DNA of 64,000 nucleotides from Daucus carota subsp. sativus (taxonomy: Eukaryota > Streptophyta > Magnoliopsida > Apiales > Apiaceae), in contig NC_030388.2 of the NCBI RefSeq assembly GCF_001625215.2, positions 22,060,558 to 22,124,557 on the forward strand, given 5' to 3'. Made by a program: the position numbers and the translations under genes. The notes beneath the pieces are model-generated. The model saw only the letters and a program-made list of their open reading frames with translations. It was not told the DNA's origin and did not search any database. This document shows positions 18,758 through 47,600 of this stretch, piece after piece (the first letter of the stretch is position 1; each line of letters starts with the position of its first letter).

Positions 18758-18794
18758 TTGTTCATCGATGTAATATTATTAGTGCAATAGATAC

Positions 18795-18860
<66 letters not shown>

Positions 18861-18861
18861 T
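18795..18861. repeat. (ATA)n microsatellite, copy A
   Basis: About 22 uninterrupted units of ATA/TAA. The equivalent tract in copy B is 36186-36264 and is a few units longer. Confidence 0.95.
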
Positions 18862-20580: not shown

Positions 20581-21044
20581 GAGGGGTGTATTGGATTGGG
20601 ATTTTAAAGCATTTTTTTGCATTCATGAAATCCGAGGGTATTCGATTGGGATTGTTTGAAATCCATTAAAATCTTGAGGTATTCGATTGGGATTTCAAAT
20701 TATGCTACAAAATCTGGTGGTATTCAATTGGGATTTAAAATTATGATTTAAAATCCGATGGTATTCAATTGGGATTGTTTAAAATCCATTAAAATCTGAT
20801 GGTATTCAAATGCTGGTGGATTTTTTTTCATTTCATAAAATGATGGATTTTGTGGCATTCTTCAGTGTATTTTAAGTTTTTTGAAATCCCACCAAATTCA
20901 ATGGGATTTTGAAGCATTGTACCTAAATCCTATAAACTCTGCGACATTTCATTAAGAATCCGCACAAAATCAAAATCCCGTACAATCCGTTAAAATCCAT
21001 AGACTAAAAACAATGCATTAAAATCCCAATCGAATACACCCCTC
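20581..21044. mobile_element. PIF/Harbinger-type MITE nested in the retroposon
   Basis: Starts GAGGGGTGTATTGGATTGGG and ends with its complement, CCAATCGAATACACCCCTC, giving inverted repeats of about 35 bp. It is flanked by the 3-bp target TAA on both sides (20578-20580; 21045-21047). The interior consists of degenerate direct and inverted copies of GGTATTCGATTGGGATT. There is no coding capacity. It was inserted after the retroposon formed, or was carried inside it. Confidence 0.85.
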
Positions 21045-21351
21045 TAAGAGTTTAATTGCCTCAATTATGAGTTATCATGATTGTGGGAATATTTTTGATA
21101 TAATCTGTTATATATATCGACTTATATTTTTAATTATTGTTTCCCATGTTTTATTTTCAGGATTATTGGAAGAAGACCGGTTTTTCTTTTCGGACATTAA
21201 AATTTTATTGTCTAAATTTCCCCGATCATCTTGCATGTCCGACGGTTAGATAATAAGCTTTCTTGAATGAAAGAATTATCACGGTGAATTGCCGATTCAT
21301 ATTTCGTTGAGATTCATTCTCATTATCAAAAAAAAAATACAATTCTTGTAC

Positions 21352-22500
21352 GATATTTTTATTATCGATAGTAGTCTTATAATTTTCTTAAATTTCGAAT
21401 AAAAAATAAAGGATCGTAAAGATAATACAATTATTTTCTTATTGGATTGTAAAGGTAAATATAATTATTTTTTTTATTTAGGAACCCTAAAAGGAATAAA
21501 ATTGCGTTTATTGAACAATCATAGAAAAAACACAATTCATATTTAAGATTTGTATGATAATAGAATTCTTATTTTTGTTTTAGTCTTATGATTTTCTTAA
21601 ATTTTGAATAGAAAATAAAATAATAATCTAAAAATCAGGTTGAGGGATTGTAAACTGAATCGTGCGGTTTGTGTAAAATTCAAACCGTAACCACACCACG
21701 AAATTTAAAAACCACGTTTTATGGTGCGGTTTGAATTTTTCACAAACCGCACCACGAAACTTAAAATCCAAATTGTGATATTCAGGATTTTTTCTACATT
21801 TTACCTGTGCTACGCATTGATCGATCAATTTTTCAAATAAAAATAATTATGTTAATATATAAATTAAAGTACTGGTTATTTTGATATCATTTATACAATT
21901 TTATTAAATTTAAATATATGTATAAATTTTCTAAATAATTTATTATATCTTAAATACTTTAATTTTGATCAAATATAAATGTCCCGTTATTATTAAATGA
22001 AACATATAATAAATCATATTTTATCTTCAATCAAATATTATATAAGGATCGACTATCGGTTCAAGAATTATGAAATTCAATCTCTGCTTCGAATTTCAGA
22101 ACCCAAAATCTAAACAATATGGGTTCGGTTTCATCTTAATTCCCGAATTTGAACAAATAATGATATAGTATATTTTTCGATCACAGTTCGAACGACAAAT
22201 AAGGATCCACGAGTATTTTGAAAAATCCTAAAAATTTTAAAACTAATAAAAATTAAAATATATTTTAAAATTAATCAGTTAATTACTCGACTATGAATTA
22301 ATTTTAATTATCATATAATCAAAAATACACATAAAATTATTATTAGTAAACCATAATACAATATAAAATAGTAAAAAATAAAAGAGAATAATATAAGTAC
22401 ATATAAAATTATATTATTTTTAATAATTTATGTAAAAGAATAATTTAATATTTTAGGGTCATAAATTTTTCCAATTTCCCGTCCCGAATAAAAGAGTGTC
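21352..22500. other. Duplicated AT-rich region with an inverted-repeat core (copy A)
   Basis: Matches 37020-38200. It contains repeated segments (TAGTCTTATGATTTTCTTAAATT; TGTTTATTGAACAATCATAG) with a period near 200-230 bp that are also found upstream of the retroposon. Around 21655-21775 copies of GTGCGGTTTGAATTTT and its complement form a stem-like block; the match in copy B is about 37338-37445. No gene is seen. The frame at 21628-21828 is a by-product of the inverted repeats. Confidence 0.55.
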
Positions 22501-23197
22501 GTGATAGTTTCTATAGCTTTCTTTACGGGACGGTTCTATATCCACGTCCAATGGGGAAACACTGATTTCTGTTTAAAAGGTGAGTGAAGCCGGTGATTTC
22601 AGCGGAAGTGATTTCTCCATCCCTTAGCATCTGATTAAAGTTTGGCTGGTTGGCTAATGGCTTATATCCCCGCCCCATCGCGAAAAAGAAAAGGTGATGA
22701 TTGCAGAGAGCTAACACTCGGAGAAATTACTCGTATCCGAAGAGGGGTAAATTATTTTTCAACTAATATTGTCGAAAATTCAATTGCTTGCTGATGTTCT
22801 TGTAGATATATTTGTGGATTTCAATTATTTGTTTTGTTTGATTATTATACCTTTTGTTCTCTAAAGAAAAAAGAAGATGGCTTAAGAATGTTTCATTTTG
22901 AGAAATTTGTTATGCGTACAATGTGTGGCGCTGCAGCCTTTTATAGGCCCTGTACTATCACCTTAGTTTGTAACAGAAAAGTAACAGAAAGTCTCAAATT
23001 ACACTTCACTTCCTCTCACTTATAGTAAATCACATATTTAGCCCTGCAATATCCTGTATTCTCAAAAACTCTCACAAACTTCATTCAGGCCCACCTTGCA
23101 TTTGTTAAATATTTCAAAATTTGAAATTGGTTTGGGTTTGACAGACCTTGTGTAACTGGTGTACAGTTAACTGGCTTTTTATGTTTCTCAGAAAGTT

Positions 23198-23728
23198 ATG
23201 CCGATTCATCTACTTTTTGAATGTGCCACCGGATACGCCCTTATTCTTGCCCGTGGAATCACTGAAGTTGGGATGGTCAAATTTGAATCAGTCGAGGAGT
23301 ACCTCAACCAATCAGAGCAACCCTTTGAGCTTGAATCTTATCTACCATTTTCATCGGACGAGAATGCCCTAATTCAAATGAATGCTATTTCCAAGTGTAA
23401 AGTTCATTTCTGTCTTAATCCACTTCTTTCCATGTATCCCCTCTTCTTTTACACAAAGTTGTATTTTTGTTTCTTTTTTAGCACTCGTGACTGATCAGTT
23501 ACAGAAATTTCTCGAGGATGCTCTTCCACAACCAAAAATGGGAGGAAGTAGGTATACTGTTGGAGTTGGTGATTCAATGCTGGGAGCAAGGATTATAAGG
23601 AAAACAGGTTTATGTGTTCGAAGTGCTAGACTGATTAGTGATGTCATGCGTGGCTTGCGGATGAAAATTAATCAACTGATAGGCTTGGGGGTATGTTGTT
23701 CTTTTTTCAAACTAGCATTTACAACATC

Positions 23729-23768
<40 letters not shown>

Positions 23769-24139
23769 CTCAAATACAAACCACTAAAATAAAAACTAAA
23801 ATGGAAACCAAGAGAAACTATACCTAAATGACCTCACCCACCCCCTATATGTCATCATCCACCTAAGGCCCGCCCTCACCACAACTCAATCCACCCCGGG
23901 CCCGCTAGGGCCTCGCTAAGGCTCCTCACAGGCCCTGGACATGCTCCAGACAATCTTAAAGAGCCAAACCTTGGTCCCACTATGTTGCCACTAGGCCCCG
24001 ACCCGGCCCTATTAGGCCCCACTTAGACCCCGTCTAGGCCCATGTCGGGATTCATCCCCGGTCCCAAAACCCGCATCATTCTACTTAATCTCATTGGTTT
24101 CTATTTAGTTTCTATTCTAGTAGTTTCTATTAAAGTAGG

Positions 24140-24178
<39 letters not shown>

Positions 24179-26024
24179 ATATATATAGACACACACACAC
24201 ACACACACTAACACTTCTGAATTCTGATTATATGCAGCATGGTGAATTGGAAAGGGCTCAACTTAATCTGGCGCGCCTTTACAACCGGACGTGTACTCAA
24301 AAAATCATCAAAAGGCCGATCTTGGTTTCATCATTTTCTTCGTTAAAAAAACAAATTAAGGTTGTGCCATTTAGATTTGAAGGTGTTTTTAAAACCAAGG
24401 GTAAAGACAACATGTTGTGCACCAAAAATTTAGTACCCGGCGAAGCTCTTTATGGTGAAGAATTAATGCGTGTTCAGGCGAGTTGATTTATCTGTGATTA
24501 ATATTTGCCTCTTAATTGATTTATGTAGTTATGAATCTCCATGAATATTATTATCTTTATGTTGAAACTGCTTTTTTTGTGTCACGTGTTAAATTCTTTA
24601 AACCAACGTATTAGTTCTCAATTAATGTCTTAAAAAGGCTCCATATTGGTCCTTTGTCCTTTTTCAATGTTGTCGTTTAATGCACAATAATGCATAGCTT
24701 TGTGTTTCCATCCGCCGACCAAGTTTTTACTTATTAGGAATTATTTCAATCTTTTTATCTCAGAATGAGGGGGACATAACTGAAGTCGAGTACAGAGTGT
24801 GGAATCCCTTCAGATCGAAATTAAGTGCCGCAATCATGTATGGTGTTACCAACATATGGATTGTAAGTATTATCATATCTCGGAACTTGAAATAGAATAT
24901 GAGTTGTGTAATGTACTGATCAATCTAAATAATTATTTTTGTTTTATGTTTTTTAGAAACCCGGCTCTCGTGTTTTATACTTGGGAAATGTATGTGGACT
25001 TACGGTTTCTAATTTGTCCGATCTTGTTGGTTCGGTAAGTTATGTAGTCTGTCGTAGGTTACATATATCTATCATTTATACCTTGACCAGACATGTGTTT
25101 CAATAGTAGTTTGAAAACATATTTACATAATTTTCATTTGCAGGATGGTATGGTCTATGTAGTGGGGTATATTGATGATGTTGTGGGCATGGCCGGGACA
25201 AGGCCAAATGTTGTGACAATTATAGAAAAATTCTGGAATCATGGGAATTACCGCATGCTTGTTAGTACGGTTGATGTGATCTTTGCTGAGTATGATCGTC
25301 ATCTGGATGAGGTTCTCTTCTGTCCCCGTAATATGAAGTTTAATATTTCATACTCCATTAAGTGCACAATTTCGTGTTAAGTGTTTTTAAATAAATTTGG
25401 GACAGGGGTCTTACTCTAATTATAAATAACTTTTGTAATACTATATCTTTTTAATCATGTATAGTTCATCATTCAGTTTTTGTTTTGCTTATTTCATATG
25501 ATAGTCAGTATGATTTCCATGTTTCAAATAATGGGCTAATGGCTATTAGTTGAATATCTAATATATCTTTGTAACCATGCTCATTTGTGATATTTCATAA
25601 TTCTTCGTATGTGCGTAGAGAATTACACCTTACTCAATAACTTGTTATGTTCTATTACTATTCTGGTTTACATAGTAGTGATTTTGGTTTTGTGTTTGCT
25701 AGTATGTTGCAGAGACGCTATTTATGGTTAATAATGTTCGTTTCTATCTTAGAGCTGGTGGGCATTACATGATCTCTACACGGGTTTGTTTTCGATTATT
25801 ATATGATTTACTGTGTAATAATGTCTTTGATGTCTTTGTTGAACTATGCTGATGACTAATGTTAATTGTAGGCGAACAACCTCAATTCGACTGGTCAAGT
25901 TAAAGATGTTTTTACTATTCATTTCCAACGAAAGGAATTTAAGCAAATTGAAACAATCATGCTGAATTTGATGGAGGGAGCATGTTCCTTGGTTGTTGGT
26001 AGTTATCGCTTACTTGATGATTAA
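23198..26024 (+). CDS. Nop56/58 N-terminal domain fused to fibrillarin methyltransferase (copy A)
   Basis: Eight coding exons: 23198-23396, 23482-23690, 24238-24477, 24764-24862, 24957-25034, 25144-25311, 25703-25783, 25872-26024. Together they make 1227 nt and a 408-residue protein with no interruption. Residues 1 to about 160 are a NOP5NT domain (MPIHLLFECATGYALILARG; LVTDQLQKFLEDALP; VMRGLRMKI; GELERAQLNLARLYNR) as in snoRNP scaffolds Nop56/Nop58. From about residue 175 the protein is fibrillarin (EGVFKTKGKDNMLCTKNLVP; EYRVWNPFRSKLSAAI; NIWIKPG; RVLYLGNVCG; GGHYMI; VVGSYR). The junction is inside exon 3. The fibrillarin GAR region and the Nop coiled coil and Nop domain are absent. All junctions are GT-AG except a GC donor after exon 3 (CAG/GCGAGT). 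Fibrillarin's acidic SAM residue is G283, the catalytic Asp is E324 and the later Lys is R358, so catalysis is doubtful. A 5' UTR exon probably ends near 22746. Confidence 0.88.
23732..23766. repeat. (TA)n microsatellite in intron 2, copy A
   Basis: A pure AT dinucleotide run just left of the intronic TIR element. The longer match in copy B is 39436-39484. Confidence 0.95.
23767..24140. mobile_element. GC-rich-cored TIR element in intron 2 (copy A)
   Basis: The left end (AAACCACTAAAATAAAAACT) and the complement of the right end (GAAACTACTAGAATAGAAAC) form imperfect inverted repeats of about 40 bp, continuing to GGAAACCAA/GAAACCAAT. The core (about 23860-24060) is very GC-rich (CACCCCGGGCCCGCTAGGGC), unlike anything around it. 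TA repeats flank both sides, hiding any target duplication. It could be a MULE-type element with a captured GC-rich segment. It is also present in copy B (39486-39867). Confidence 0.55.
24141..24208. repeat. (CA)n(TA)n(CA)n compound microsatellite
   Basis: Runs of CA, then TA, then CA again just before the exon 3 acceptor of the copy A gene. In copy B the equivalent place holds only a short TA run. Confidence 0.9.
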
Positions 26025-28960
26025 ATGCATGTTCAAAGGTGTGTTTTTCTTCAACGGTAGATCTTAAATTTAAGTTGTTGGTGTTGTGTATGAATTTTGT
26101 TTATTTTAATATACTAGTTTTTCTTTCATATTTGCTTTCTTTCAAATTATGATTTGGTTGTCATAACCATGACTATGTTTATTGAATTTAAGCCTTTAGT
26201 CAGTGCCCTCACAATTGTGATCTCATAGCATCCCAATGACAATATACGTGTTAAGGATCTGAGGAGTTATTTCTCGGTGATCGATCATAAGAGATTAGGC
26301 AAGTCAACTACAGTTACTCATAACATGTAGTTAACGTTCATAATTATGATTGATGAAAAAAGTAAATGGATTCCCTAGCTCAGCATTGACTTCCAATCCC
26401 CAACCATCCCCCCCCCCCCCCCCCCCCAACCCCCAACCGGTCAAAACCTCTTGTTACTAAAATACAGTCTTATTGGCATTTGGTTAATTTTTAAGCAGTA
26501 TTTGTTCATGTTATCTAGTTGATTGTTCTATCTTTGGTAATGCTTGCATTTTATGTTGTTTCTGTTTAGTTTTTTGCATATTTTGCGGCCGTAACTTTTA
26601 TTAATTATTAGGTCTTCGAGTATGAAAAGATTTAAATATTGACAAATTGGAATTACCTAATGATATTGGGGTGGCCAAGGTCTAATTGCATTTCACAAGT
26701 TGTGATAATAAACCAAACCAAACGTACCCGGTATATCCAGCTATTTGTAGTTTACGTGCTATTGTCTTGATGTTCTGCTAGTCTTATATATCTGTAATCT
26801 GTTGTTTGCAGGGATCCAACTTTGGATGGAATGGCTCCACTTTGTAGACTTGTCTGGTGTTTGGTTGTTTCTATATTCAATTTGAAGTAATCTGAATCCT
26901 TTTCAAAATTAGGTTTAATTTTGTATTTATCTAATACTACTGTGGTAGTTATAAATATGATATTCAGTAATTTGATCATCATCACATTTTGTTTTCCGAT
27001 CTCTTTGAAGATGCTTCATGCATTTCTTCTTTTGTTGTTCTCGAGATAAACATAAATGCTGCTTCCAACATTTACGGTGTACCTGTCTAAGTGTAACTGC
27101 TTATGGTTCATGTTTGAAGGATGGTGAATGGCTTGTGTTAGATAAAAAAATGGCATGATATGATTTTCCGTTTGGAGAAGAAGCCTTAACTAAGGTTTTG
27201 TTGCAAAGTGTGGAATGCAAAATTCAAACCTTATCAATGGATTTCTTATAGTTGCGTGACCAATAGAAATTAGCAGCAAATCTCCCTTGTCAAGTTGCTT
27301 GTCTATCTTATTGTAAAAAATACCTGCTCTTTCTCGATGGTGTACATCCCCTGATCCTTCATTAACCGAAACTATGAAAAGAAGTTAGAAGAACTGGATT
27401 GCATCATGAGAGATGAAAAACTTGAATGGATCATGCTGTCTTGGTTTGTAATTTAGTAGTGATGTAGTGAAGAAAGAAAAGTTATTCATGTTGATCCAAA
27501 TTGAACATTTTCATCCAGGTCGGCCAGTCTGTGTTGTGTTTCGCGTACATTGAGCTTTGAAGTACTTGACAACTGCATTAATCTTCCTTGGTTTGCTGAA
27601 GTCCTTCGTTCGAGAGGAGGCTCTCATTCTGCTTGCCAGAATTCTTTGAGATGGAAATTATATATATCTAGTCTTTTTTCTTTTCCAGCCAACCATACAA
27701 CGTTTCTCCTAATTTACTTAAAAAATTCTATTAGGAACCATTCTGTCAAGAGTCAAGGTTATTGTTCGATAAAAATCAAGGAAATGATTCTAGAATGGAA
27801 AGGAGAGCTTCGACTTGGGGGTGTAAATAAAAATGAACTACTACTATAGTAGAGACTCAGAGAGTAGCGGAGAATATGTTTGTTACATGATGTTACGCCT
27901 TCATAACCAAATATTATTGGTTAAAATTATAAATCTCCACACCAGGGATTGCCATTTATTGTTATTTGTGTCTTCATCATCTTCAGAGTAAGGTCATGGA
28001 AAACTATTTAGATGTACTAGAACCAGAGAATACAGTCCATCAACGAAATAGCATGTTTTTTTTTAAAACCTTATTTCTCAGTCGAGCATGCATTTAATCA
28101 CACTACACTAAAATCAGGATCGAATTTAAAACAAGATTCATAATCAAGAATTATACTTCTATTAAATTTAATAAATATAAATTTTATCATTTAAATAAAT
28201 AATTTATCAAATTTATTTTTTTATTATATTTTTTATAACTTAAAAATTATCTATAATATAAAATTATTTGTACAATTTAAAGTGCTTATTTATACTATTA
28301 AATCATTATAAATCATAAGACATTAATTTAAATCTAGTCAAACAAGCTCATAAATCAGCAACTAATCCCAACTGATTTGCTTAAATATGAGCATTCATTC
28401 CCTCAAATATAGTATATTGGCAAAACTTAGCATTCAAGAAACATCATGCAATAAAATCAGAAATCAAATAGTAGTAGAAAACTTCAAATTTGATCTACGC
28501 TTTGCACTAACAAGCCTTGCAAAATACATGAGGTTCTGCAAGTTGCATCGAAACTATGTTAGCACCAAATTCAAAAAAAATTGAACAAGATAAAAAAACA
28601 TGCTACATATTTGGAGTGTCAGTAATTAATAACATATCTCCAACCGGCTTATTTTCAGGAATACAACTTAGCATATATTGTTTTCCCATAAAATGAAGGT
28701 ATAAAAAGAAGAGTGGATTACTGTCCATATTGTTATTATAGCAACAGCTTACAAGATAATGATCAAAGACCAAAGACCAAACTAGAAATTATAGGCTAAA
28801 AGTGCCCACCTCAAAACAAGTATTTCATGGAGCAGGGATACATAAAATCAGCCAGTTTTTTCCTGTTTAAAGCTCTAAATCATACATGAACTCATAAAAA
28901 GGATACCGCTCAAGCAACTGCAAAAACTTGGTCTATCAATATAACTCTGCAGCAGACTAA
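26025..28960. other. Convergent intergenic region, copy A
   Basis: This separates the 3' ends of the Nop-fibrillarin gene and the PRP3 fragment. The first part is probably 3' UTR and downstream sequence. A C20 run lies at 26408-26427. A plus-strand 99-codon frame at 27550-27849 is identical in copy B (43220-43519), but it sits in the near-identical tract, so identity alone does not show coding, and its sequence matches nothing known to me. Positions 28120-28300 are AT-rich. Confidence 0.5.
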
Positions 28961-30710
28961 TCACTCCTCTGTGAAGTTGAGTGCAAGATCCCAATAGTGA
29001 GGAACTCCAGCATCAGAAAATACCCTCCGAGCAGCTGCTTCACTCCTGCACTCATGGACAGTAAACCTGTTAAAACTCGGTTTAGCAACACTTCCTTGCC
29101 ACACTAAGACACATTTGTTTACAACAGCTTCATCCTCATCTTCGTCTTCATCTCTCACAGCTGCAGCCCAGTCTATTCGTTTAAGCATAAGCTTCCCATA
29201 CCGTTTGATGGACTTACTTCCACCTTCAACTACCACAACAGTAATGCCGTCAGATATCACAGCACTTCCTGTCAATCGATTTTCCTGGGCATTCACATCA
29301 ACCTTAAAGCGGGTCTGACGGTGTGAAAGATCATTAATTTTATAGACAGAAACTAGCGTCTCTAGTGTATTAGGGTCATCAAAAAGTTTCCTTTTCTTCT
29401 TTCCACTGCGTTCATCAGGGGTTAGCTTCCGTGCCATATTTCTGTCGACATGAGCTTGTTCACGCTCAGCAGCAGCGCTTCTGATTTCCATTTCAAGTCG
29501 AGTAGGATCTTGGGTTGCTTCAGAACCAAGCACTTTCATCAGATTGCTCATTTTAACTTTGGGTTTAGGAGGTTCTATCAGGCCTTGCCTGATCATCTCT
29601 TGCTTATCTTTTTCCCTAGCAAGTCGTCTCTGTGTACGGAGTTTCTTCTGTTCTTTCTTCGTCAGTTTTAAGGGTTGAGGAGGTGGAGGAGCAGGTTCAG
29701 CAGGTGGCTCAATAGGCCGTGGATGTTCCACATAAATGGTAATTTTCTCCATCCTCAACTTATTTTCCGCTATTTTACCGTCACATATATCATCGTAAGT
29801 ACCAGCCAATAAAAGAGGTGCATCCCTGAAAATAATGAGCAATCGCATACGCTTGTTACTTATTTGACATGCTAAATTTGATCAACAAAGGGCAAATAAT
29901 TAGAAAAAACACCAAACTTTGCATCACTACTATCGTACACGAACTTAAAAACTTCAATATAGGATCTGGCACTTTTCACAAGTGTACATAGGCACGTGCA
30001 GGCAATCACCAATGTAATTTTAAAATGGACCTGGCAACAACCTTACACTCCCAATATTATGAAGCTGATTTCTCAATCAGCTTTATTATGTGAGTTTAGC
30101 ATTTTTAACAATATAAACAGCTAATATCATCTGCAACCCAAACCCCACATGTAATATGGAATGGTACGAAAAAGAATTTAATTCACATGCTTGATAAAAA
30201 AAACTTCACATGTTGAGTTCTACATATAATGAAGGAACCAATTAAGTAACATAATCAGTAAGCACAGTTTCAAAGAGCATAGATAGACTTTACTGCTATG
30301 ATTCATAAAGACCCGACAACAATTTAAAGCTAATAAAAAATATATTCTCTTAAAATAAATCAAGCAGAATTATACTGTATTATGAAAGATTCAGGTATCT
30401 TACCACCACTCAACTTCAGGAATTGGTTCTTTTGGTTTCTCTTTCACGATCACTCTCTCTGATACCTCAATCAGGTTGGGATTTATATCTGGCTCTGCTT
30501 TAGCTTTTGCAAACTGTGCTTGCTTGACCCTCAACTCTTTCGCTTGTGCTTCACCAAATTGACTCTGAAAAAGAAATTAGAAGTGGAGAATAAAAAAAAA
30601 TGTTAACATAACCAGAGCGAGAATAGAAAATATAAACCAGAATACCTTCAACTTAGTAATCTCTGCATCTCTCGACCATTTACCCTCCTCTACAAATAGA
30701 AAATTCATTC
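28961..30710 (-). pseudogene. 5'-truncated PRP3 gene copy (copy A)
   Basis: This holds the last exon (28961-29825), the preceding exon (30404-30564) and the 3' part of the exon before (30646-30710) of the PRP3 gene that is complete at 44632-49139. Similarity ends at 30710 within coding sequence, so the first three exons and the start of the fourth are missing. The remaining exons are still open. The last-exon reading frame (295 codons counting intron) is identical in protein to copy B. That preservation is explained by the near-identical tract and does not prove function. A shortened protein with the PRP3/DUF1115 C-terminus could be made only if a new promoter and start exist upstream; I see none. 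Confidence 0.9.
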
Positions 30711-33464: not shown

Positions 33465-33973
33465 GAGCATCTCCAAGAGTCTCCTAATAGACTCCTAAAT
33501 ATAATATAAAAAAATATGACTCTTAGTAATATAGTATAATTTTAAGAGTGATAACTCCAACAATGCTCTCTATATCCTCTCATTATTGTATATTTTATTC
33601 ATATCTAAACCCACTATGTCAAGGATTTAAATTCATGTAGTGGAGCTACTACATGGCTCTTAAAAATAGAGGAGAGAGGAGAGACTCTTAAGTTTTTTAA
33701 GATCCATAAGAGCCTCTGGGAGCTCAATTTTTGATCATTCTCTTTATATTTTGAGTTAGGAGCCTATCTAAGAGTCTATTGTAGATGCTCTAACATTATG
33801 CAAAAAGAAGCTTGTGGAGAAATAGAGGAGAGAAAAGAGGCTCTTAAAATAGAGGAGAGAGAAGAGGATCTTAAGTTTTTTAAGATCCACTAAGAGCCTC
33901 TTGGAGCTCAATTTTTGATCATTCTCTTTATATTTTGAGCTAGAAACCTATTTAAGAGTCTATTATAGATGCT
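33465..33973. mobile_element. MITE with duplicated right end (copy B)
   Basis: Starts GAGCATCTCCAAGAGTCTCC as in copy A. The first right end GTAGATGCTC finishes at 33790; a second, from a local duplication of about 183 bp, finishes at 33973. It is not interrupted by the copy A retroposon. Confidence 0.7.
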
Positions 33974-34430
33974 CTAACATTATGCAAAAAGAAGCTTGTG
34001 GAGAAATTAAATACCATATACATATAGAGGGTGACTTGGAGAGTGCTTTATGGTGGCAGCTTATCCCATAATAATATGCATTTAACATATCTTACTCATT
34101 TACTTCAGGAAAAAGGCCCGATCAGCAAGAAGCAAACAAAAAACTGACATTCATATTTCAATATATCAGACGTAGGCCACTACATCATGAATCTGAAGTA
34201 TTTCATGTGTTAGAAATGAGAAAAACTAAAGTTGATCAGTGGCCAAACAAGTCATGCAAAAGAACAATCACCACACAACATTGTAGAATTACTATAAAAT
34301 CTAATTGACAAGCTATCACTAGATACTATTATGGACAGACTAAAACGAAAATTGGTTCCTGCAACAATCTTAATCAAAACTATACTATCCCACTATTTTT
34401 ATTTGCTCCAATTGCATAGCTATCAGTATA

Positions 34431-34728
34431 CTCCCTCCGTCTCATTTTATGTGAGCTGGTTTGACTTTCACGGAGATTAAGAAAAAGTAGTAAGAAAGAG
34501 TAAATTTAGTTTAAAAGTGGGTAAGTGGTGGGACCTACTAAAATTTAATAATAGATTGGAGAAAAGTAGTGGTTGTAATAGTATTTATTTGATAAAAAGA
34601 GAGTATAAAATAGATAAGTGATGAGTGTAATAGTGAAAAGTATGGGTTCAGAAATAGTAAATATAGTAGGTTCATTCTTTTTGAGACGTCCCAAAAAGGA
34701 AGGGTCACATAAAATGGGATAGAGGGAG
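34431..34728. mobile_element. Stowaway MITE (copy B)
   Basis: CTCCCTCCGTCTCATTTTAT at the left, ATAAAATGGGATAGAGGGAG at the right, with TA on both sides. It is orthologous to 16188-16472. The 73-codon frame inside it is not a gene. Confidence 0.9.
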
Positions 34729-35339
34729 TACTAATGTAGTAATAAATACTCTTAGACAATTAAATCTTTAAAGTCAATTTGTTGATGCAAATATAATCTA
34801 ATAGAGAAGTAATTTCAATTTTCTGAATTTTATTGGACAATTCTTAGGCTTCAAAATATTAAAACCAAGAGCTAGCAACTCAATCTAGGGACGGAAGATT
34901 ATGATCTCGAAAAATAACAACTCAGTCTAGAGACGGAAGATTATGATCTCGAAAAATTCGTCGTATTAACATATACATATCTATCTCGACACTATTCAAG
35001 AACAATGAACAATTGTCTTTATTAGTCGGTTTAATTATAAAAAGACAATGCAAAAGTATTTGCAGACCCAATTTCCTAATAAGTTGGAAGATGTTCCATT
35101 CAGTTTCAAAGAATCTTAGAAAATTTATAAAAAAACAGAGTTATTTGAGAGAAGTATAATGTACCAGAAAACATAAAATTGATATTAATACTTAACATAA
35201 CAAGATAGCAAACTCTTTTAAAACTAACTTTACAACTAACTCTAGAAATTTACGGATATCTTTTTTCACCATAGATACTCAATTCGAACCCAACATCCGT
35301 GGAAGTCCTACATACTAATACACCACGTGCCCCTCATCC

Positions 35340-36023
35340 GTGAGCACCTCTTCGTCTTCCTTTTCGTCTTCTTCTCCGTCTTCCTTTTCGTCTTCTACCA
35401 CTCAATATACCTCTGGTAGATATATGTCAACTCATTATCCTCATTTACACGGTAAATGACAAGACGTACAGCATTTCCAAAAAATCTTGCATTTCGCATA
35501 GCAATATTACCATGAGACATATGTTGATTCCTCATGACTCTCACTCTCAGTCTATGCCCTTCGACAACAGGGGCAAGAGGGATCAGTTAACCTCTCTTAA
35601 ATTTTTGTCCTTGATTTTATATAATTAGTTTTATATAATTACATAATGTCGTGCAACGGTAAAAAATTACGTAGTCTGAATCATTTTGGTATCCGTCATT
35701 CTAATCAGAGTGGATATGACTTATTTATGTTATGAAACGGTAAATATTTATATAATATGAATATTATTTTTCCCCTGTGTTCATTCAAATTAATATCGCT
35801 ACAAAATATTATATACGACATCCCTTATTTTCGGAGCTGCATCCGCCACTGGATGCACCCGATGAACAATCGGAGAAACATGCCTAATTTGTGCACTCTG
35901 GACACGAACAATCTGATGGTCAGCCGGAAGTTGTTCGATTGTTTGTTGATAAAAAATGAAACGGTTATTGGTGTTATCTATAAATTCATCAAAACGCTGG
36001 AGGAGTCTACGAGCAAGATCCAT
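35340..36023 (-). pseudogene. Unrecognised duplicated minus-strand reading frames (copy B)
   Basis: Counterpart of 17108-17744. The first frame (35799-36023) begins MDLARRLLQRFDEFIDNTNN and then changes to unrelated sequence after SAQIRHVSP. Positions about 35341-35390 contain extra CGTCTTCCTTTT-type repeats not in copy A. Family unknown; probably decaying. Confidence 0.4.
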
Positions 36024-36185
36024 GTTAGATCCAAAGGCTAAATTCCTGAAACAAAAGGAACGATTTTAAACATAACCGGTTATGTTGATCTAATTATTTT
36101 TTTAATTAAGTACAAATTCATTTAATTTTCTCATTTTATTGTTCATCAATGTAATATTATTAGTGCAATAGATCCATTAAATGGT

Positions 36186-36186
36186 C

Positions 36187-36264
<78 letters not shown>
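36186..36264. repeat. (ATA)n microsatellite, copy B
   Basis: Trinucleotide run matching 18795-18861 and slightly longer. Confidence 0.95.
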
Positions 36265-38200
36265 TACAAAGATGCAAAATAATCTAATCTATAATGAAAT
36301 ATCCTAAATATAGAAAATTAGAGAGGACGTGATCAATAAACTTTGGATTGTATATACAGTGAAACCAACATCTGAATCTTTATATCGTACAAAATTCTAC
36401 TATGAAAAGGGTTTTTATTACAAATAATTGATTATATAATTATTGTAATTCTGATTTTATTTGTATTATTAAATAATTTTGAAGACATGTATTGATTATT
36501 ATAGGAGAACAATTCTATCATAAAATAGTTTTTTTTAATTATAATATTACTTTTTCTATAAATTCTTCCAATCTTGCTGAGGTCCATAGAATTTGGAAAG
36601 GGCCAAAGTCATATGCTCAAAGCTCTTGCAGGTGATGTTATTGGATTCTTTGAGGAGTGGGAATCAACCTGCCTTGATTATGATGAAAGGCTAGCAAAAA
36701 CTGCAATAGTCCTTTACTTAATAATAAATTTTTATAAATTAATTAAAAAAGTTCCGTGCATTGCACTGGCTATAAGCTAGTAGGAGGATACGAAGGGCGG
36801 TGATGTGGCGTCTCCGGAATTGCTCGATTTAGTCTTATAATTTTCTTGAATTTTAAATTGAAAAATAAAAATGTAATTCAAAAAATCAGGTTGAGGGATT
36901 CTGAAGGTAATACAGTTCTTTTTTAATTGGATTCTAGAGGTAATACAATTATTTTCTTATTTAGAAATCCTAAAAGGAATAGGATTGTGTTTATTGAACA
37001 ATCATAGAACAAATACAAGTCATATTTAGGATTTGTACGATAATAGAATTTTTATTTTCGATTTAGTCTTATGATTTTCTTAAATTTCGAATAGAAAATA
37101 AAGGATTGTAAAGATAATACAATTCTTTTCTTATTGAATTGTAAAGGTAATACAATTATTTTCTTATTTAGGAACCCTAAAAGGAATAAGATTGTGTTTA
37201 TTGAACAATCATAGAACGAACACAATTCATATTTAAGATTTGTATGATAATAGAATTCTTATTTTTGTTATAATTCTCTTAAATTTTGAATAGAAAATAA
37301 AATTATAAACTAAAAATCAGGTTGAAGGATTGTAAACCGCATCGTGCGGTTTGTGGAAAATTCAAACCGTAACCACACCACGAAATTTAAAAACCACGTT
37401 TTTTGGTACGGTTTGAATTTTTCACAAACCGCACCACGAAACCTAAAATCCAAATTGTGATATTCAGGACTTTTTCTACGTTTTACCTGTGCTACGCATT
37501 GAACAATCAATTTTTCAAATAAAAATAATCATGTTAATATATAAATTTAAGTACTGATTATTTTCTTTTTCAAAAAAAAAAAGTACTGATTATTTTGATA
37601 TCATTTATACAATTTTATTAAATTTAAATATATGTATAATTTTTCTAAATAATTTATTATATCTTAAATGCTCTAATTTTGATCAAATATAAATGTCCCA
37701 TTATTATATTAAATAAAATATATAGTAATCATATTTTATTTTCAATCAAATATTATATAAGATCGACTATCGGTTCAAGAATTATGAAATTCAATCTCTA
37801 CTTCGAATTTCAGAACCTAAAATCTAAATAATATGGATTCAGTTTCGTCTTAATTCTTGAATTTGCACAAATACTGATATAGTATATTTTTTGATCATCG
37901 TTCGAACGACAAATAAGGATCCACAAGTATTTTGAAAATTCCTAAAAATTTTAAAACTAATATAAATTAAAATATATTTTAAAATTAATCAGTTAATTAC
38001 TCGACTATGAATTAATTTTAATTATCATATAATCAAAAACACACATAAACTTATTATTAGTAAACCATAATACAATATAAAATAGTAAAAAATAAAAGAG
38101 AATAATATAAGTACATATAAAATTATATTATTTTTAATAATTTGTGTAAAAGAATAATTTAATATTTTAGGGTCATAAAATTTTCCAATTTCCCGTCCCG
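36265..38200. other. Duplicated AT-rich region (copy B)
   Basis: Matches copy A from 18862 to 22500 but lacks the 1.7 kb retroposon. Two or three diverged tandem copies of a unit of about 200-230 bp containing TGTTTATTGAACAATCATAG lie at 36837-37270. The inverted GTGCGGTTTGAATTTT block is at about 37338-37445. A short duplicated AGTACTGATTATTTT with an A-rich spacer lies at 37551-37601. No gene is seen. Confidence 0.55.
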
Positions 38201-38902
38201 AATAAAAGAGTGTCGTGATAGTTTCTATAGCTCTCTTTACGGGACGGTTCTATATCCACGTCCAATGGGGAAACACTGATTTGTGTTTAAAAGGTGAGTG
38301 AAGCCGGTGATTTCAGTGGAAGCCCCTTTCTCCATCCCTTAGCATCTGATTAAAGTTTGGCTGGTTGGCTAATGGCTTATATCCTCGACCTATCGCGAAA
38401 AAGAAAAGGTGATGATGATTGTAGAGAGCTAACACTCGGAGAAGTTACTCGTATCCGAAGAGGGGTAAATTATTTTTCAACTAATATTGTCGACAATTCA
38501 ATTGCTTGCTGATGTTTTTGTAGATATATTTGTGGATTTCAATTATTTGTTTTGTTTGATTATTATACTTTTTGTTATTCTTCTCTATAGAAAAAAGAAG
38601 ATCGCTTGAGAATGTTTCATTTAGAGAAATTTGTTATGCAGCCTTTTATAGGCCCTGTACTATCACCTTAGTTTGTAAGAGAAAAGTAACAGAAAGACTC
38701 AAATTACACTTCACTCCCTCTCACTTATAGTAAATCACAGTATTAGCCCTGCAATATTAATCATTCTCAAAAACTCTCACAAACTTCATTCATGCCCACC
38801 TTGCATTTGTTAAATATTTCAAAATTTAAAATTGGTTTGGGTTTGACAGACCTTGTGTAAGTGGTGTACAATTAACTGGCCTTTTATGTTTCTCAGAAAG
38901 TT

Positions 38903-39432
38903 ATGCCGATTCATCTACTTTTTGAATGTGCCACCGGATATGCCCTTGTTCTTGCCCGTGGAATCACTGAAGTTGGGATGAACAAATTTGAATCAGTTGA
39001 GGAGTACCTCAACCAATCAGAGCAGCCCTTTGAGCTTGAATCTTATCTACCATTTTCATCGGTCGAGAATGCCCTAATTCAAATGAATGCTATTTCCAAG
39101 TGTAAAGTTCATTTCTGTCTTAATCCACTTCTTTCCATGTATCCCCTCTTCTTTTTACACAAAGTTGTAATTTTGTTTCTTTTTTAGCACTCGTGACTGA
39201 TCAGTTACAGAAATTTCTCGAGGATGCTCTTCCACAACCAAAAACGGGAGGAAGTATGTATACCGTTGGAGTTGGTGATTCAATGCTGGGAGCAATGATT
39301 ATAAGGAAAACAGGACTATGTGTTCGAAGTGCTAGACTGATTAGTGATGTCATGCGTGGCTTGCGGATGAAAATTGATCAACTGATAGGCTTGGGGGTAT
39401 GTTGTTCTTTTTTCAAGCTAGCATTTATAACA

Positions 39433-39486
<54 letters not shown>

Positions 39487-41723
39487 CAATTGCTCAAATA
39501 CAAACCACTAAAATAAAAACTAAAATGGAAACCAAGAGAAACTATACCTAAATGACCTCACCCACCCCCTATATGTCATCACCCACCTAAGGCCCGCCCT
39601 CACCCCAACTCAATCCACCCCGGGCCCGCTAGGGCCTCGCTAAGGCTCCTCACAGGCCCTAGACATGCTGTAGACAATCTTAAATAGCCAAGACTTGGTC
39701 CCACCATGTTGCCACTAGGCCCCGACCCGGCCCTATTAGGCCCCACTTAGACCCCGTCTAGGCCCATCTCGGGATCCATCCCCGGTCCCAAAACCCGCAT
39801 CATTCTACTTAATCTCATTGGTTTCTATTTAGTTTCTATTCTATTAGTTTCTATTGGAGTAGGACCTATATATATATATAATTTTTCATACTAACACTTT
39901 TGAATTCTGATTATATGCAGCATGGTGAATTGGAAAGGGCTCAATTTAATCTGGCGCGCCTTTACAACCGGACGTGTACTCAAAAAGTCATCAAAAGGCC
40001 GATCTTGGTTTCATCATTTTCTTCGTTAAAAAAACAAATTGGGGTTGTGCCATTTAGATTTGAAGGTGTTTTCAAAACCAAGGGTAAAGACAACATGTTG
40101 TGCACCAAAAATTTAGTACCCGGCGAAGCTCTTTATGGTGAAGAATTAATGCGTGTTCAGGTGAGTCGATTTATCTGTGATTAATATTTGCCTCTTAATT
40201 GATTTATGTAGTTATGAATCTCCATGAATATTATTATCTTTATGTTGAAACTGCTTTTTTTTTTTGTCACGTGTTAAATTCTTTAAACCCAATGTATTAG
40301 TTCTCAATTAATGTCTTAAAAAGGCTCCATATTGGTCCTTTGTCCTTTTTTAGTGTTGTCATTGTTTAATGCACAATAATGCATAGCTTTGTGTTTCCAT
40401 CCGCCGACCAAGTTTTTACTTATTAGGAATTATTTCAATCTTTTTATCTCAGAATGAGGGGGACATAACTGAAGTCGAGTACAGAGTGTGGAATCCCCTC
40501 AGATCGAAATTAAGTGCCGCAATCATGTATGGTGTTACGAACATATGGATTGTAAGTATTATCATATCTCGGAACTTGAAATAGAATATGAGTTGTGTAA
40601 TTATTTTTGTAAATCTAAATAATTATTTTTGTTTTATGTTTTTTAGAAACCCGGCTCTCGTGTTTTATACTTGGGAAATGTATGTGGACTTACGGTTTCT
40701 AATCTGTCCGATCTTGTTGGTTCGGTAAGTTATGTAGTCTGTCGTAGGTTACATATATCTATCATTTATACCTTGACCAGACATGTGTTTCAATAGTAGT
40801 TTGAAAACATATTTCCATAATTTTCATTTGCAGGATGGTATGGTCTATGTAGTGGGGAATATTGATGATGTTGTAGGCATGGCCGGGACGAGGCCCAATG
40901 TTGTGACAATTATAGAAAAATTCTGGAATCATGGGAATTACCGCATGCTTGTTAGTACGGTTGATGTGATCTTTGCTGAGACTGATCGTCATCTGGATGA
41001 GGTTCTCTTCTGTCCCCGTAATATGAAGTTTAATATTTCGTACTCCATTAAGTGCACAATTTCGTGTTAAGTGTTTTTAAATAAATTTGAGACAGGGGTC
41101 TTACTCTAATTACAAATAACTTTTGTAATACTATATCTTTTTAATCATGTATAGTTCATCATTCAATTTTTGTTTTGCTTATTTCATATGATAGTCGGTA
41201 TGATTTCCATGTTTCAAAGAATGGGCTAATGGCTATTAGTTGAATATCTAATATATCTTTGTAACCATGCTCATTTGTGATATTTCATAATTCTTCGTAC
41301 GTGCGTAGAGAATTACACCTTACTCAATAACTTGTTATGTTCTATTACTATTCTGGTTTACATAGTAGTGATTTTGGTTTTGTGTTTGCTAGTATGTTGC
41401 AGAGACGCTATTTATGGTTAATAATGTTCGTTTCTATCTTAGAGCTGGTGGGCATTACATGATCTCTACACGGGTTTGTTTTCAATTAGTATATGATTTA
41501 CTGTGTAATAATGTCTTTGATATCTTTGATGTCTTTGTTGAACTATGCTGATGACTAATGTTAATTGTAGGCGAACAACCTCAATTCGACTGGTCAAGTT
41601 AAAGATGTTTTTACTATTCATTTCCAACGAAAGGAATTTAAGCAAATTGAAACAATCATGCTGAATTTGATGGAGGGAGCATGTTCCTTGGTTGTTGGTA
41701 GTTATCGCTTACTTGATGATTAA
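38903..41723 (+). CDS. Nop56/58 N-terminal domain fused to fibrillarin methyltransferase (copy B)
   Basis: Same architecture as copy A. Exons are 38903-39101, 39188-39396, 39921-40160, 40453-40551, 40647-40724, 40834-41001, 41393-41473 and 41571-41723, again giving 408 uninterrupted residues. All introns have GT-AG ends, including a normal CAG/GTGAGT donor after exon 3. It differs from copy A at about a dozen residues, nearly all in exons 1-6 (for example V27N, D54V, M86T, R90M, K177G, F232L, Y284N, Y325T); the last two exons are identical. The substituted fibrillarin positions (G283, K304, E324, R358) are the same, so those changes predate the duplication. K250 of NIWIKPG is kept. Expected location, if functional, is the nucleolus with box C/D snoRNPs; this is inference from the parent families. 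Confidence 0.9.
39436..39484. repeat. (TA)n microsatellite in intron 2, copy B
   Basis: A pure TA run next to the intronic TIR element, longer than in copy A. Confidence 0.95.
39486..39867. mobile_element. GC-rich-cored TIR element in intron 2 (copy B)
   Basis: Counterpart of 23767-24140, with the same imperfect inverted ends and the same GC-rich core. The insertion therefore predates the duplication. Confidence 0.55.
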
Positions 41724-44631
41724 ATGCATGTTCAAAGGTGTGTTTTTCTTCAACGGTAGATCTTAAATTTAAGTTGGTGTTGTGTATGAATTTTGTTTAT
41801 TTTAATATACTAGTTTTTCTTTCATATTTGCTTTCTTTAAAATTATGATTTGGTTGTCATAACCATGACTATGTTTATTGAATTTAAGCCTTTAGTCAGT
41901 GCCCTCACAATTGTGATCTCATAGCATCCCAATGACAATATACGTGTTAAGGATCTGAGGAGTTATTTCTCGGTGATCGATCATAAGAGATTAGGCAAGT
42001 CAACTACAGTTACTCATAACATGTAGTTAACGTTCATAATTATGATTGATGAATAAAGTAAATGGATTCCCTAGCTCAGCATTGACTTCCAATCCCCCCC
42101 CCCCCCCCAACCGGTCAAAAACCTCTTGTTACTAAAATACAGTCTTATTGGCATTTGGTTAATTTTTAAGCAGTATTTGTTCATGTTATCTAGTTGATTG
42201 TTCTATCTTTGGTAATGCTTGCATTTTATGTTGTTTCTGTTTAGTTTTTTTGCATATTTTGCGGCCGTAACTTTTATTCATTATTAGGTCTTCGAGTATG
42301 AAAAAGATTTAAATATTGACAAATTGAAATTACCTAATGATATTGGGGTGGCCAAGGTCTAATTGCATTTCACAAGTTGTGATAATAAACCAAACCAAAC
42401 GTACCCGGTATATCCAGCTATTTGTAGTTTACGTGTTATTGTCTTGATGTTCTGCTAGTCTTATATATCTGTTGTTTGCAGGGATCCAACCTTGGATGGA
42501 ATGGCTCCTCTTTGTAGACTTGTCTGGTGTTTGGTTGTTTTTATATTCAATTTGAAGTAATCTGAATCCTTTTCAAAATTAGGTTTAATTTTGTATTAAT
42601 CTAATACTACTGTGGTAGTTATAAATATGATATTCAGTAATTTGATCATCATCACATTTTGTTTTCCGATCTCTTTGAAGATGCTCCATGCATTTCTTCT
42701 TTTGTTGTTCTCGAGATAAACATAAATGCTGCTTCCAACATTTACGGTGTACCTGTCTAAGTGTAACTGCTTATGGTTCATGTTTGAAGGATGGTGTATG
42801 GCTTGTGTTAGATAAAAAAATGGCATGATATGATTTTCCGTTTGGAGAAGAAGCCTTAACTAAGGTTTTGTTGCAAAGTGTGGAATGCAAAATTTAAACC
42901 TTATCAATGGATTTCTTATAGTTGCGTGACCAATAGAAATTAGCAGCAAATCTCCCTTGTCAAGTTGCTTGTCTATCTTATTGTAAAAAATACCTGCTCT
43001 TTCTCGATGGTGTACATCCCCTGATCCTTCATTAACCGAAACTATGAAAAGAAGTTAGAAGAACTGGATTGCATCATGAGAGATGAAAAACTTGAATGGA
43101 TCATGCTGTCTTGGTTTGTAATTTAGTAGTGATGTAGTGAAGAAAGAAAAGTTATTCATGTTGATCCAAATTGAACATTTTCATCCAGGTCGGCCAGTCT
43201 GTGTTGTGTTTCGCGTACATTGAGCTTTGAAGTACTTGACAACTGCATTAATCTTCCTTGGTTTGCTGAAGTCCTTCGTTCGAGAGGAGGCTCTCATTCT
43301 GCTTGCCAGAATTCTTTGAGATGGAAATTATATATATCTAGTCTTTTTTCTTTTCCAGCCAACCATACAACGTTTCTCCTAATTTACTTAAAAAATTCTA
43401 TTAGGAACCATTCTGTCAAGAGTCAAGGTTATTGTTCGATAAAAATCAAGGAAATGATTCTAGAATGGAAAGGAGAGCTTCGACTTGGGGGTGTAAATAA
43501 AAATGAACTACTACTATAGTAGAGACTCAGAGAGTAGCGGAGAATATGTTTGTTACATGATGTTACGCCTTCATAACCAAATATTATTGGTTAAAATTAT
43601 AAATCTCCACACCAGGGATTGCCATTTATTGTTATTTGTGTCTTCATCATCTTCAGAGTAAGGTCATGGAAAACTATTTAGATGTACTAGAACCAGAGAA
43701 TACAGTCCATCAACGAAATAGCATGTTTTTTTTTAAAACCTTATTTCTCAGTCGAGCATGCATTTAATCACACTACACTAAAATCAGGATCGAATTTAAA
43801 ACAAGATTCATAATCAAGAATTATACTTCTATAAAATTTAATAAATATAAATTTTATCATTTAAATAAATAATTTATCAAATTTATTTTTTTATTATATT
43901 TTTTATAACTTAAAAATTATCTATAATATAAAATTATTTGTACAATTTAAAGTGCTTATTTATACTATTAAATCATTATAAATCATAAGACATTAATTTA
44001 AATCTAGTCAAACAAGCTCATAAATCAGCAACTAATCCCAACTGATTTGCTTAAATATGAGCATTCATTCCCTCAAATATAGTATATTGGCAAAACTTAG
44101 CATTCAAGAAACATCATGCAATAAAATCAGAAAATCAAATAGTAGTAGAAAACTTCAAATTTGATCTACGCTTTGCACTAACAAGCCTTGCAAAATACAT
44201 GAGGTTCTGCAAGTTGCATCGAAACTATGTTAGCACCAAATTCAAAAAAAATTGAACAAGATAAAAAAACATGCTACATATTTGGAGTGTCAGTAATTAA
44301 TAACATATCTCCAACCGGCTTATTTTCAGGAATACAACTTAGCATATATTGTTTTCCCATAAAATGAAGGTATAAAAAGAAGAGTGGATTACTGTCCATA
44401 TTGTTATTATAGCAACAGCTTACAAGATAATGATCAAAGACCAAAGACCAAACTAGAAATTATAGGCTAGAAGTGCCCACCTCAAAACAAGTATTTCATG
44501 GAGCAGGGATACATAAAATCAGCCAGTTTTTTCCTGTTTAAAGCTCTAAATCATACATGAACTCATAAAAAGGATACCGCTCAAGCAACTGCAAAAACTT
44601 GGTCTATCAATATAACTCTGCAGCAGACTAA
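41724..44631. other. Convergent intergenic region, copy B
   Basis: Matches 26025-28960. From about 42905 onward the two copies are almost identical. It contains a shorter C run (42094-42108). The 99-codon frame at 43220-43519 is present as in copy A, with no recognisable domain. No other gene is supported. Confidence 0.5.
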
Positions 44632-47600
44632 TCACTCCTCTGTGAAGTTGAGTGCAAGATCCCAATAGTGAGGAACTCCAGCATCAGAAAATACCCTCCG
44701 AGCAGCTGCTTCACTCCTGCACTCATGGACAGTAAACCTGTTAAAACTCGGTTTAGCAACACTTCCTTGCCACACTAAGACACATTTGTTTACAACAGCT
44801 TCATCCTCATCTTCGTCTTCATCTCTCACAGCTGCAGCCCAGTCTATTCGCTTAAGCATAAGCTTCCCATACCGTTTGATGGACTTACTTCCACCTTCAA
44901 CTACCACAACAGTAATGCCGTCAGATATCACAGCACTTCCTGTCAATCGATTTTCCTGGGCATTCACATCAACCTTAAAGCGGGTCTGACGGTGTGAAAG
45001 ATCATTAATTTTATAGACAGAAACTAGCGTCTCTAGTGTATTAGGGTCATCAAAAAGTTTCCTTTTCTTCTTTCCACTGCGTTCATCAGGGGTTAGCTTC
45101 CGTGCCATATTTCTGTCGACATGAGCTTGTTCACGCTCAGCAGCAGCGCTTCTGATTTCCATTTCAAGTCGAGTAGGATCTTGGGTTGCTTCAGAACCAA
45201 GCACTTTCATCAGATTGCTCATTTTAACTTTGGGTTTAGGAGGTTCTATCAGGCCTTGCCTGATCATCTCTTGCTTATCTTTTTCCCTAGCAAGTCGTCT
45301 CTGTGTACGGAGTTTCTTCTGTTCTTTCTTCGTCAGTTTTAAGGGTTGAGGAGGTGGAGGAGCAGGTTCAGCAGGTGGCTCAATAGGCCGTGGATGTTCC
45401 ACATAAATGGTAATTTTCTCCATCCTCAACTTATTTTCCGCTATTTTACCGTCACATATATCATCGTAAGTACCAGCCAATAAAAGAGGTGCATCCCTGA
45501 AAATAATGAGCAATCGCATACGCTTGTTAGTTATTTGACATGCTAAATTTGATCAACAAAGGGCGAATAATTAGGAAAAACACCAAACTTAGCATCACTA
45601 CTATCGTACACGAACTTAAAATCTTCAATATAGGATCTGGCACTTTTCACAAGTGTACATAGGCACGTGCAGGCATCACCAATGTAATTTTAAAATGGAC
45701 CTGGCAACAAGCTTACACTTCCAATATTATGAAGCTGATTTCTCAATCAGCTTTATATGTGAGTTTAGCATTTTTAACAATATAAACAGCTAATATCATC
45801 TGCAACCCAAACCTCACATGTAATATGGAATAGTACGAAAAAGAATTTAATTCACATGCTTGATAAATAAAACTTCACATGTTGAGTTCTACATATAATG
45901 AAGGAACCAATTAAGTAACATAATCAGTAAATCACAGTTTCAAAGAGCATAGATAGACTTTACTGCTTTGATTTATAACGACCCGACAACAATTTAAAGC
46001 TAATATAAATATATTCTCTTAAAATAAATCAAGCAGAATTATACTGTATAATGAAAGATTCAGGTATCTTACCACCACTCAACTTCAGGAATTGGTTCTT
46101 TTGGTTTCTCTTTCACGATCACTCTCTCTGATACCTCAATCAGGTTGGGATTTATATCTGGCTCTGCTTTAGCTTTTGCAAACTGTGCTTGCTTGACCCT
46201 CAACTCTTTCGCTTGTGCTTCACCAAATTGACTCTGAAAAAGAAATTAGAAGTGGAGAATAAAAAAAATGTTAACATAACCAGAGCGAGAATAGAAAATA
46301 TAAACCAGAATACCTTCAACTTAGTAATCTCTGCATCTCTCGACCATTTACCCTCCTCTACAAATAGAAAATTCATTCTTTTAGGCCTCAGAAGCTTATT
46401 CTTATCAATACCCATGTCCGGATCAAAGTGTGGATTTTTCTCGGGATCAACTTCCAGTTCAGGTTTTAACATTTGAAATGAATCTTTTTTCTGCTTGTTA
46501 ATGTTAACCTGGACAACATAAAAGAAAGCACTGGTGAATTTGCATTAAGATAACTTTAAACAAAGATATAGAATGTTATAACTCAGCAAGCAAACAAATA
46601 ACAAACCTTCAGGGTGCTGAGGTTGTTCAGTTTTGGAACATTCACCACATTTCCATGTTCATCTATTTCTCTGCCCAACGCATCCAAACGAAGAACAGGA
46701 GCCTTTGCAGGCTTTGGCTGGACAGTAACATCAGGTGGTAACTGTCCAGGAAACATGTTTATCAGAGGAGCATATTGTGGGTCCTGTCTGAATCCCATTT
46801 TAGCGGCAAGCTCCTGTGCACGTTTAACCGCTTCAACCTTTGGTGCTGTAAGGCCCTCTAGATGAGGCACACCACTCACAAGTGGTTTTGCTGAAGCAGA
46901 AGTAGGTAGAATTGAAGAACTTAATGTTACTCCAGCAGATGGAGCAGGAGTAGGAAGTATGCCTGATGTAGAGACTGCTGCTTTAGATCCCTCTTTCGAC
47001 CCAATACTCTTGTTTAACTACAAGATCAACAAGAAATTTTAGGTGTGCATAGTAGATTATTGACAGGTAACTACTGAAGAAATAAAATGAAAGCGTAAAA
47101 CTTGTGATATTATATCGTATACTTACCAATGGAATTTTCTTTAACTTCTCGGAGATTTCCTTCTGCTTCTGCAAGGTTATCCTCGCTTTTGTCAAAGCAT
47201 CAAGTGAGTGGAGACCTCCACTTCTCCCAGCTGCTGGAGTTGTCCCATCTGTACTAGATTTCCCAGGAACCTCATAAGATCTGTTCACAATAACTCCCTT
47301 ATTTTCATTTGTGGTATAAATTGAAGATACCTTAGGATTGTCGACAGGAGTAAAAGAGGCCCCAGGCAGAGTTCCTGATGCCATGTTGAGTGGTTCCGAA
47401 CCAGCACCCTGTAAAAAATAGAATCAATCAATTAAAACTGTATACTGAATTATGAGTTTTGAAAAAAATATTATGCTTGAGAATATATCTTTAGAGCACA
47501 CCAACATCATGACAACTAAAAGGAAAAGTTAAAAACTCATCAAAAGTCTTCCACAAATACTACCATTGACCAGCCGACAGTTTACTTGCAGATATGTGCT

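Follow-up and report, generated by a model that had tools for sequence, protein, structure and literature searches.

The 64,000-nucleotide stretch of Daucus carota DNA analysed here (the window), which lies on contig C8 of the carrot genome, carries a real gene in which a Nop56-type N-terminal domain and a fibrillarin fold, two natural binding partners, are fused in one reading frame. An earlier note had described eight exons splicing into a 408-amino acid frame. Splicing of the window DNA yielded this open frame, with GT-AG at all junctions and neither a stop nor a frameshift, and all eight exons were confirmed, although an upstream exon (38372-38464) had been overlooked. This exon joins an acceptor at 38897 in an open splice, making nine exons and 441 codons. 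The resulting gene (copy B, 38372-41723, forward strand) encodes a 441-amino acid protein with a basic N-terminus and is organised as follows:

Exon 0, 38372..38464, forward strand: basic N-terminus beginning MAYILDLSRKRKGDDD; open splice; start of database protein P0002 identical
Exon 1, 38897..39101, forward strand: first part of NOP5NT; the 408-amino acid model begins at 38903
Exon 2, 39188..39396, forward strand: remainder of the Nop56-type N-terminal domain
Exon 3 (junction exon), 39921..40160, forward strand: end of the Nop56 domain, linker and start of the fibrillarin fold
Exon 4, 40453..40551, forward strand: fibrillarin fold; absent from P0002
Exon 5, 40647..40724, forward strand: altered motif I; absent from P0002
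Exon 6, 40834..41001, forward strand: further active-site motifs changed or missing
Exon 7, 41393..41473, forward strand: spliced frame
Exon 8, 41571..41723, forward strand: ends at the stop codon

Structure of the chimeric gene

Protein P0002 (LOC108199324 isoform X4) is letter-identical to the 441-amino acid model except that it lacks 40453-40551 and 40647-40724. A chance reading-frame artefact is ruled out, as two database proteins (P0001, described below, and P0002) match exactly. In Pfam scans of the 408-amino acid protein, NOP5NT was found at residues 4-66 (E 1.6e-7) and Fibrillarin (PF01269) at residues 182-404 (E 7.4e-53, above the cut-off). A PDB sequence search matched residues 3-162 to residues 4-163 of human Nop56 (57.9 bits; best Nop58 match, 23 bits) and residues 173-404 to fibrillarin (178.8 bits). 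As in the earlier note, the first ~160 residues are Nop-type and the last ~230 are fibrillarin, and the switch falls within exon 3.

By eye, the exon 2 border and the first two introns lie at places corresponding to those of canonical carrot Nop56 genes (L029 and L030), and canonical fibrillarin genes also have exon borders close to profile positions 43, 69 and 95. Because introns of both the Nop56 and the fibrillarin parent are retained, the fusion appears to have formed at the DNA level, and origin of the window gene as a retrocopy was rejected. An Rfam scan of the window gave nothing above threshold, and a search against plasmid DNA gave no match.

A second copy in a tandem duplication

The window contains a second intact fusion gene (copy A, 22657-26024, forward strand) which had previously been missed. 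Its spliced protein is letter-identical to P0001, a database protein of Daucus carota, and its junction exon (24238-24477) is followed by a GC donor at 24478, where copy B has GT. The two copies lie ~15.7 kb apart within a tandem segmental duplication:

Copy A exons, forward strand: 22657-22746, 23192-23396, 23482-23690, 24238-24477, 24764-24862, 24957-25034, 25144-25311, 25703-25783, 25872-26024
Duplication unit 1, 15600..30710, no strand: alignment broken in the left part
Duplication unit 2, 33839..46378, no strand: 39887-46378 is 98.07% identical to 24204-30710

Copies A and B are both open in frame and differ with dS 0.045 and dN 0.017 (ratio 0.38, Fisher p = 0.019). The duplication also includes part of a PRP3 splicing-factor gene, at 28964-29881 and 44635-45552, both on the reverse strand; the first of these was covered by the domain scan.

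Predicted fold and loss of active-site residues

AlphaFold2 predicted the copy A protein as a single confident two-domain chain (pTM 0.86), in which the fibrillarin fold is retained and the Nop56 and fibrillarin folds are as in PDB 6zdt, the Nop56 N-terminal domain bound to fibrillarin; the reverse-order fusion described below gave a model of quality too low for use. The carrot fusion resembles 6zdt in its two folds and in the extent of the Nop56 segment (approximately residues 3-164), but differs in having a short covalent linker, altered active-site residues and no GAR tail. With Nop56 and archaeal Nop5 it shares the NOP5NT domain and the first two intron places, whereas the match ends near Nop56 residue 163 and the Nop RNA-binding domain is missing. 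With canonical fibrillarin and MED36 (PF01269) it shares the fold and the exon borders of the second half, but it has lost active-site residues and the GAR tail and has gained NOP5NT and the basic N-terminus. Both losses that the earlier note had pointed out extend to the wider family: three or more RGG motifs occur in 0 of 89 fusions, compared with 9 of 10 canonical fibrillarins checked, and Pfam found NOP5NT and Fibrillarin only in all 30 fusions scanned.

In the alignment, all 21 canonical fibrillarins, but none of the 38 forward (NOP5NT-fibrillarin) fusions, have the key glutamate of the active site. The forward fusions also seldom keep the active-site D (3/38) or K (5/38), residues which, like the others scored, we take to be SAM-contact residues, and up to four residues following the key E are deleted in 29-35 of the 38. 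Thus several active-site residues are missing in most members, while some other motif positions are retained. At the position of the key glutamate, one of the two aligned reverse proteins carries D and the other E; K is retained in one of the pair. Since the key glutamate is lost from every forward fusion aligned, the fusions are likely to be pseudo-methyltransferases. These losses leave without support the idea, raised in the earlier note, of a specialised methyltransferase; its alternative of a self-contained or competitor module is the reading that best fits the predicted fold.

Distribution of forward and reverse fusions

The chimera is not a single oddity. Three protein searches (the best 120 of 548, the best 120 of 825, and 111 matches) revealed a multi-copy family and a sister family of reverse order, both patchily distributed. 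Among the 236 proteins listed there are at least 69 NOP5NT-fibrillarin, at least 16 fibrillarin-NOP5NT and at least 4 mixed proteins; because these are the best matches of larger sets and only part of the candidates were scored, additional fusions may have been missed. The 89 fusions among the matches listed come from Apiaceae, Orobanche, Trifolium, Linum perenne and Rumex, plus further contigs. Forward fusions were listed for Daucus, Apium, Heracleum, three species of Orobanche, Trifolium, Linum perenne and Rumex salicifolius, and reverse fusions for Orobanche, Heracleum, Daucus and Trifolium, so that the reverse family shares three lineages with the forward one; the further contigs carry fusions of both orders. 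Striga, Erythranthe, Helianthus, Arachis and others had separate fibrillarins only, among the matches listed.

The two-domain make-up is uniform across the families. In six protein clusters, fusions of 435-554 amino acids are encoded on contigs of at most 1557-2012 bases (longest per cluster), which we infer to resemble spliced RNA. In the mixed gene models (P0006, P0009, P0011 and P0014) both domains are tandemly repeated, perhaps through merging of neighbouring genes. The earlier note knew of no described plant protein with this order; gene models do exist in databases under names such as “fibrillarin-like”, but no title or opening abstract in the literature searched was found to describe the fusion, and the words “fusion”, “Daucus” and “Trifolium” are absent from the main text of a survey of fibrillarin evolution (PMC7608942).

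Carrot itself holds several members. Twelve loci were examined besides the window, and 6 have exons of both domains in NOP5NT-fibrillarin order, giving 8 forward genes when both window genes are added. Three loci are of reverse order (L019, L020 and L022), one is partial (L026), and two have NOP5NT alone (L027 and L028). This count is a lower bound, because the locus of P0021 (on C9) was not found among those examined. Matched stretches contain stops in L020, L022 and L026 and none in L017, L018, L021, L023, L024 and L025. Ratios of dN/dS were 1.04 for L017/L018, 2.2 for L024/L025 (13 changes), 0.63 for L023/L021 and 0.68 for L021/L025; they were 0.43 for L020/L022 and 0.38 for window/L026, both pairs with stops in matched stretches. 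L019 and L020 show zero differences over 492 codons. Over 14.4 kb or more, a block that holds a reverse-order fusion is 99.8% identical between C2:16513043-16527400 and C7:26533176-26547549 and has one sharp edge, which suggests a very recent copy or an assembly artefact; when scanned for mobile-element ends it revealed no terminal repeats, and its sole direct repeat pair (361 bases) is internal.

A different chimera was seen at L031 (C6:35.90 Mb) and L032 (C9:43.71 Mb), where a Nop56-like N-terminal part is in frame with an F-box and a KIB1-4 beta-propeller; the domain scan covered L031.

Phylogenetic relationships

The fibrillarin tree was built from 38 forward rows (one being the second half of mixed P0009), 2 reverse rows and 21 canonical rows, the fusions being drawn from the 89. 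All 40 fusions grouped in one clade (100/97) that excluded the canonical proteins and in which the 2 reverse rows were sister to the forward ones; the Rumex row was long-branched. In the NOP tree (44 fusions, and 3 carrot rows entered by hand), fusions again formed one clade (100/100), against just those three carrot outgroup rows. A concatenated tree of 43 fusions and 1 outgroup, from which the long-branched Rumex row was excluded, contained several deep subfamilies, the Linum group among them. The mixed P0006, P0011 and P0014 were excluded from every tree.

The concatenated tree placed the carrot reverse protein with four clover proteins (100/99), apart from those of Heracleum and Orobanche. 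Its identity is 72, 72, 71 and 62% to the clover proteins, 65 and 69% to those of O. minor, and 61 and 62% to those of Heracleum. Similarly, P0033 of O. gracilis shows 69-75% identity to four Daucus and Apium members and at most 62% to other Orobanche proteins in the alignment. In AU tests of taxonomic groups, which were picked after inspection of the tree, four of five groupings gave p < 0.05: the tests rejected a single clade for reverse Apiaceae (p = 1.07e-5) and for reverse asterids (p = 0.0014), as well as for forward Orobanche (p = 0.036) and, within the window subfamily, for forward Apiaceae (p = 0.008), whereas one for forward asterids of that subfamily was not rejected (p = 0.074).

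Because the gene trees conflict with species relations, horizontal transfer is favoured, and a patchy range that takes in parasitic broomrapes as well as the clovers and carrot relatives on which they grow is a hint that the genes have moved from one species to another. According to Kado and Innan (2018, PMC6294234), the hosts of O. minor are mainly Fabaceae, with clovers preferred, and include Apiaceae; of the 22 O. minor transfer genes that they report, 11 are nearest to Trifolium pratense. Another paper likewise names red clover as an O. minor host (PMC11607093). The carrot case thus resembles the plant-to-plant transfer described by Kado and Innan in its partner plants (O. minor, Fabaceae including clovers, and Apiaceae). 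It differs in involving several lineages and both fusion orders, and the word “fibrillarin” is absent from the main text of that study.

An SRA-like companion gene

Two gene models join this family to an SRA domain: in P0063 of Orobanche hederae the SRA domain is joined to a fusion, and in P0234 of Trifolium pratense, a match to the reverse-order profile, it is joined to a fibrillarin part. Related sequence is present in the window:

17114..17813, reverse strand: degenerate SRA-like pieces upstream of copy A; 46.5% identity over ~100 amino acids to the SRA part of P0063, E 1e-18
35398..35586, reverse strand: SRA-like piece, duplicate near copy B; E 2.8e-5

In Pfam the SRA match at 17114..17813 (E 0.005, 17.1 bits) is below the cut-off of 30.7, and by eye the window pieces appear broken. 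Of the 7 separate forward places in carrot, 4 have SRA-like sequence nearby, namely the window, L026 (a weak match, with E 1e-4 in one search and 0.026 in another), C5:147-149 kb (adjoining L024/L025) and C5:44.97 Mb (adjoining L023). At L017, L018, L021 and the 3 reverse places, none was found in the searched flanks (L048 not included) or in the family list. One SRA frame, at L047, stays open for 269 amino acids. At L046 (C5:147-149 kb), two SRA-like genes stand in inverted orientation next to the fusion locus. The probability of two SRA neighbours by chance is ~8e-5, a rough estimate that counts just the two neighbours from the family search and assumes flanks of 15 kb around 10 fusion places and a total of 18 degenerate SRA places, all values set by hand after the family search had been seen.

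Origin and function

Taken together, these data are probably best explained by an intact gene, with annotated splice isoforms, that arose by genomic fusion of Nop56 and fibrillarin and whose product would act as a tethered, non-methylating decoy or competitor, within a family that may have moved sideways. A Nop56 gene, whose first two intron places were kept, would have joined a fibrillarin gene that kept its introns. The product would fold as a tethered Nop56-NTD:fibrillarin pair without methylation, and its normal entry into box C/D snoRNPs would be blocked because it has neither the GAR tail of fibrillarin nor the coiled coil and RNA-binding domain of Nop proteins. It may occupy partners of the Nop56-NTD:fibrillarin module, possible targets being canonical Nop56 or fibrillarin, assembly factors, and pathogen proteins that use fibrillarin. 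The best-supported part of this account is a catalytically dead tethered module, in which the fusion and the residue losses are computed and the inactivity and action are predicted from them. Repeated transfer among carrot relatives, broomrapes and clovers is favoured with less certainty.

Vertical inheritance, by which the fusion would predate the splits of the eudicot families, be lost in most and persist as ancient paralogues in a few, seems to us rather unlikely. The several deep subfamilies are consistent with it, as paralogy is able to scramble gene trees, and so is the group of forward asterids that the AU test did not reject. It would, however, require very many losses, given that the 89 fusions among the matches listed fall in five named lineages plus further contigs while Striga, Erythranthe, Helianthus, Arachis and others are listed with separate fibrillarins only, and the O. 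gracilis protein is closer to Daucus and Apium than to other Orobanche. Independent fusion in each lineage is less probable still: the existence of both orders means that fusion or rearrangement can recur, and the Linum group is deep, but in the trees of both domains all sampled fusions fall into a single clade, if with only three carrot outgroup rows in the NOP tree.

A similarly low probability attaches to neutral debris, that is, fusions made by segmental duplication and persisting just as decaying copies. Such decay would account for the partial and NOP-only loci, the stops in three loci, the two pairs with dN/dS near or above 1 and the broken SRA-like pieces; against it, both window copies are open with a ratio of 0.38 (p = 0.019), six other loci are stop-free in their matched stretches, and the two-domain make-up is constant across families. 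By far the least probable alternative is a specialised active methyltransferase. The retained fold, the motif positions that are kept, the acidic residues of the two aligned reverse proteins and the K of one of them speak for activity, but they are set against the loss of E from all 38 forward fusions, of D and K from most, and the deletion after E in most.

Within the preferred account of a tethered decoy or competitor, the fusion might conceivably act as a decoy for fibrillarin-dependent proteins of pathogens; one plant virus protein reportedly needs fibrillarin, to go by a study's title. A broader scenario, which we regard as speculative and doubtful, is that forward and reverse pseudo-enzyme fusions and a degenerate SRA gene form a travelling set, carried by broomrapes between carrot relatives and clovers and retained for tampering with or shielding the nucleolar methylation machine, for example as a pathogen decoy or a selfish element.

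Few eukaryotic proteins are as conserved as those of the snoRNP core, and some plants nevertheless retain two opposite-order fusions of one conserved snoRNP pair with an altered active site. Such fusions would serve as a natural “Rosetta stone” for the Nop56-fibrillarin contact, would offer a ready-made probe of the roles of the Nop56-fibrillarin module besides methylation, and would give a test case for repeated nuclear gene transfer from plant to plant.
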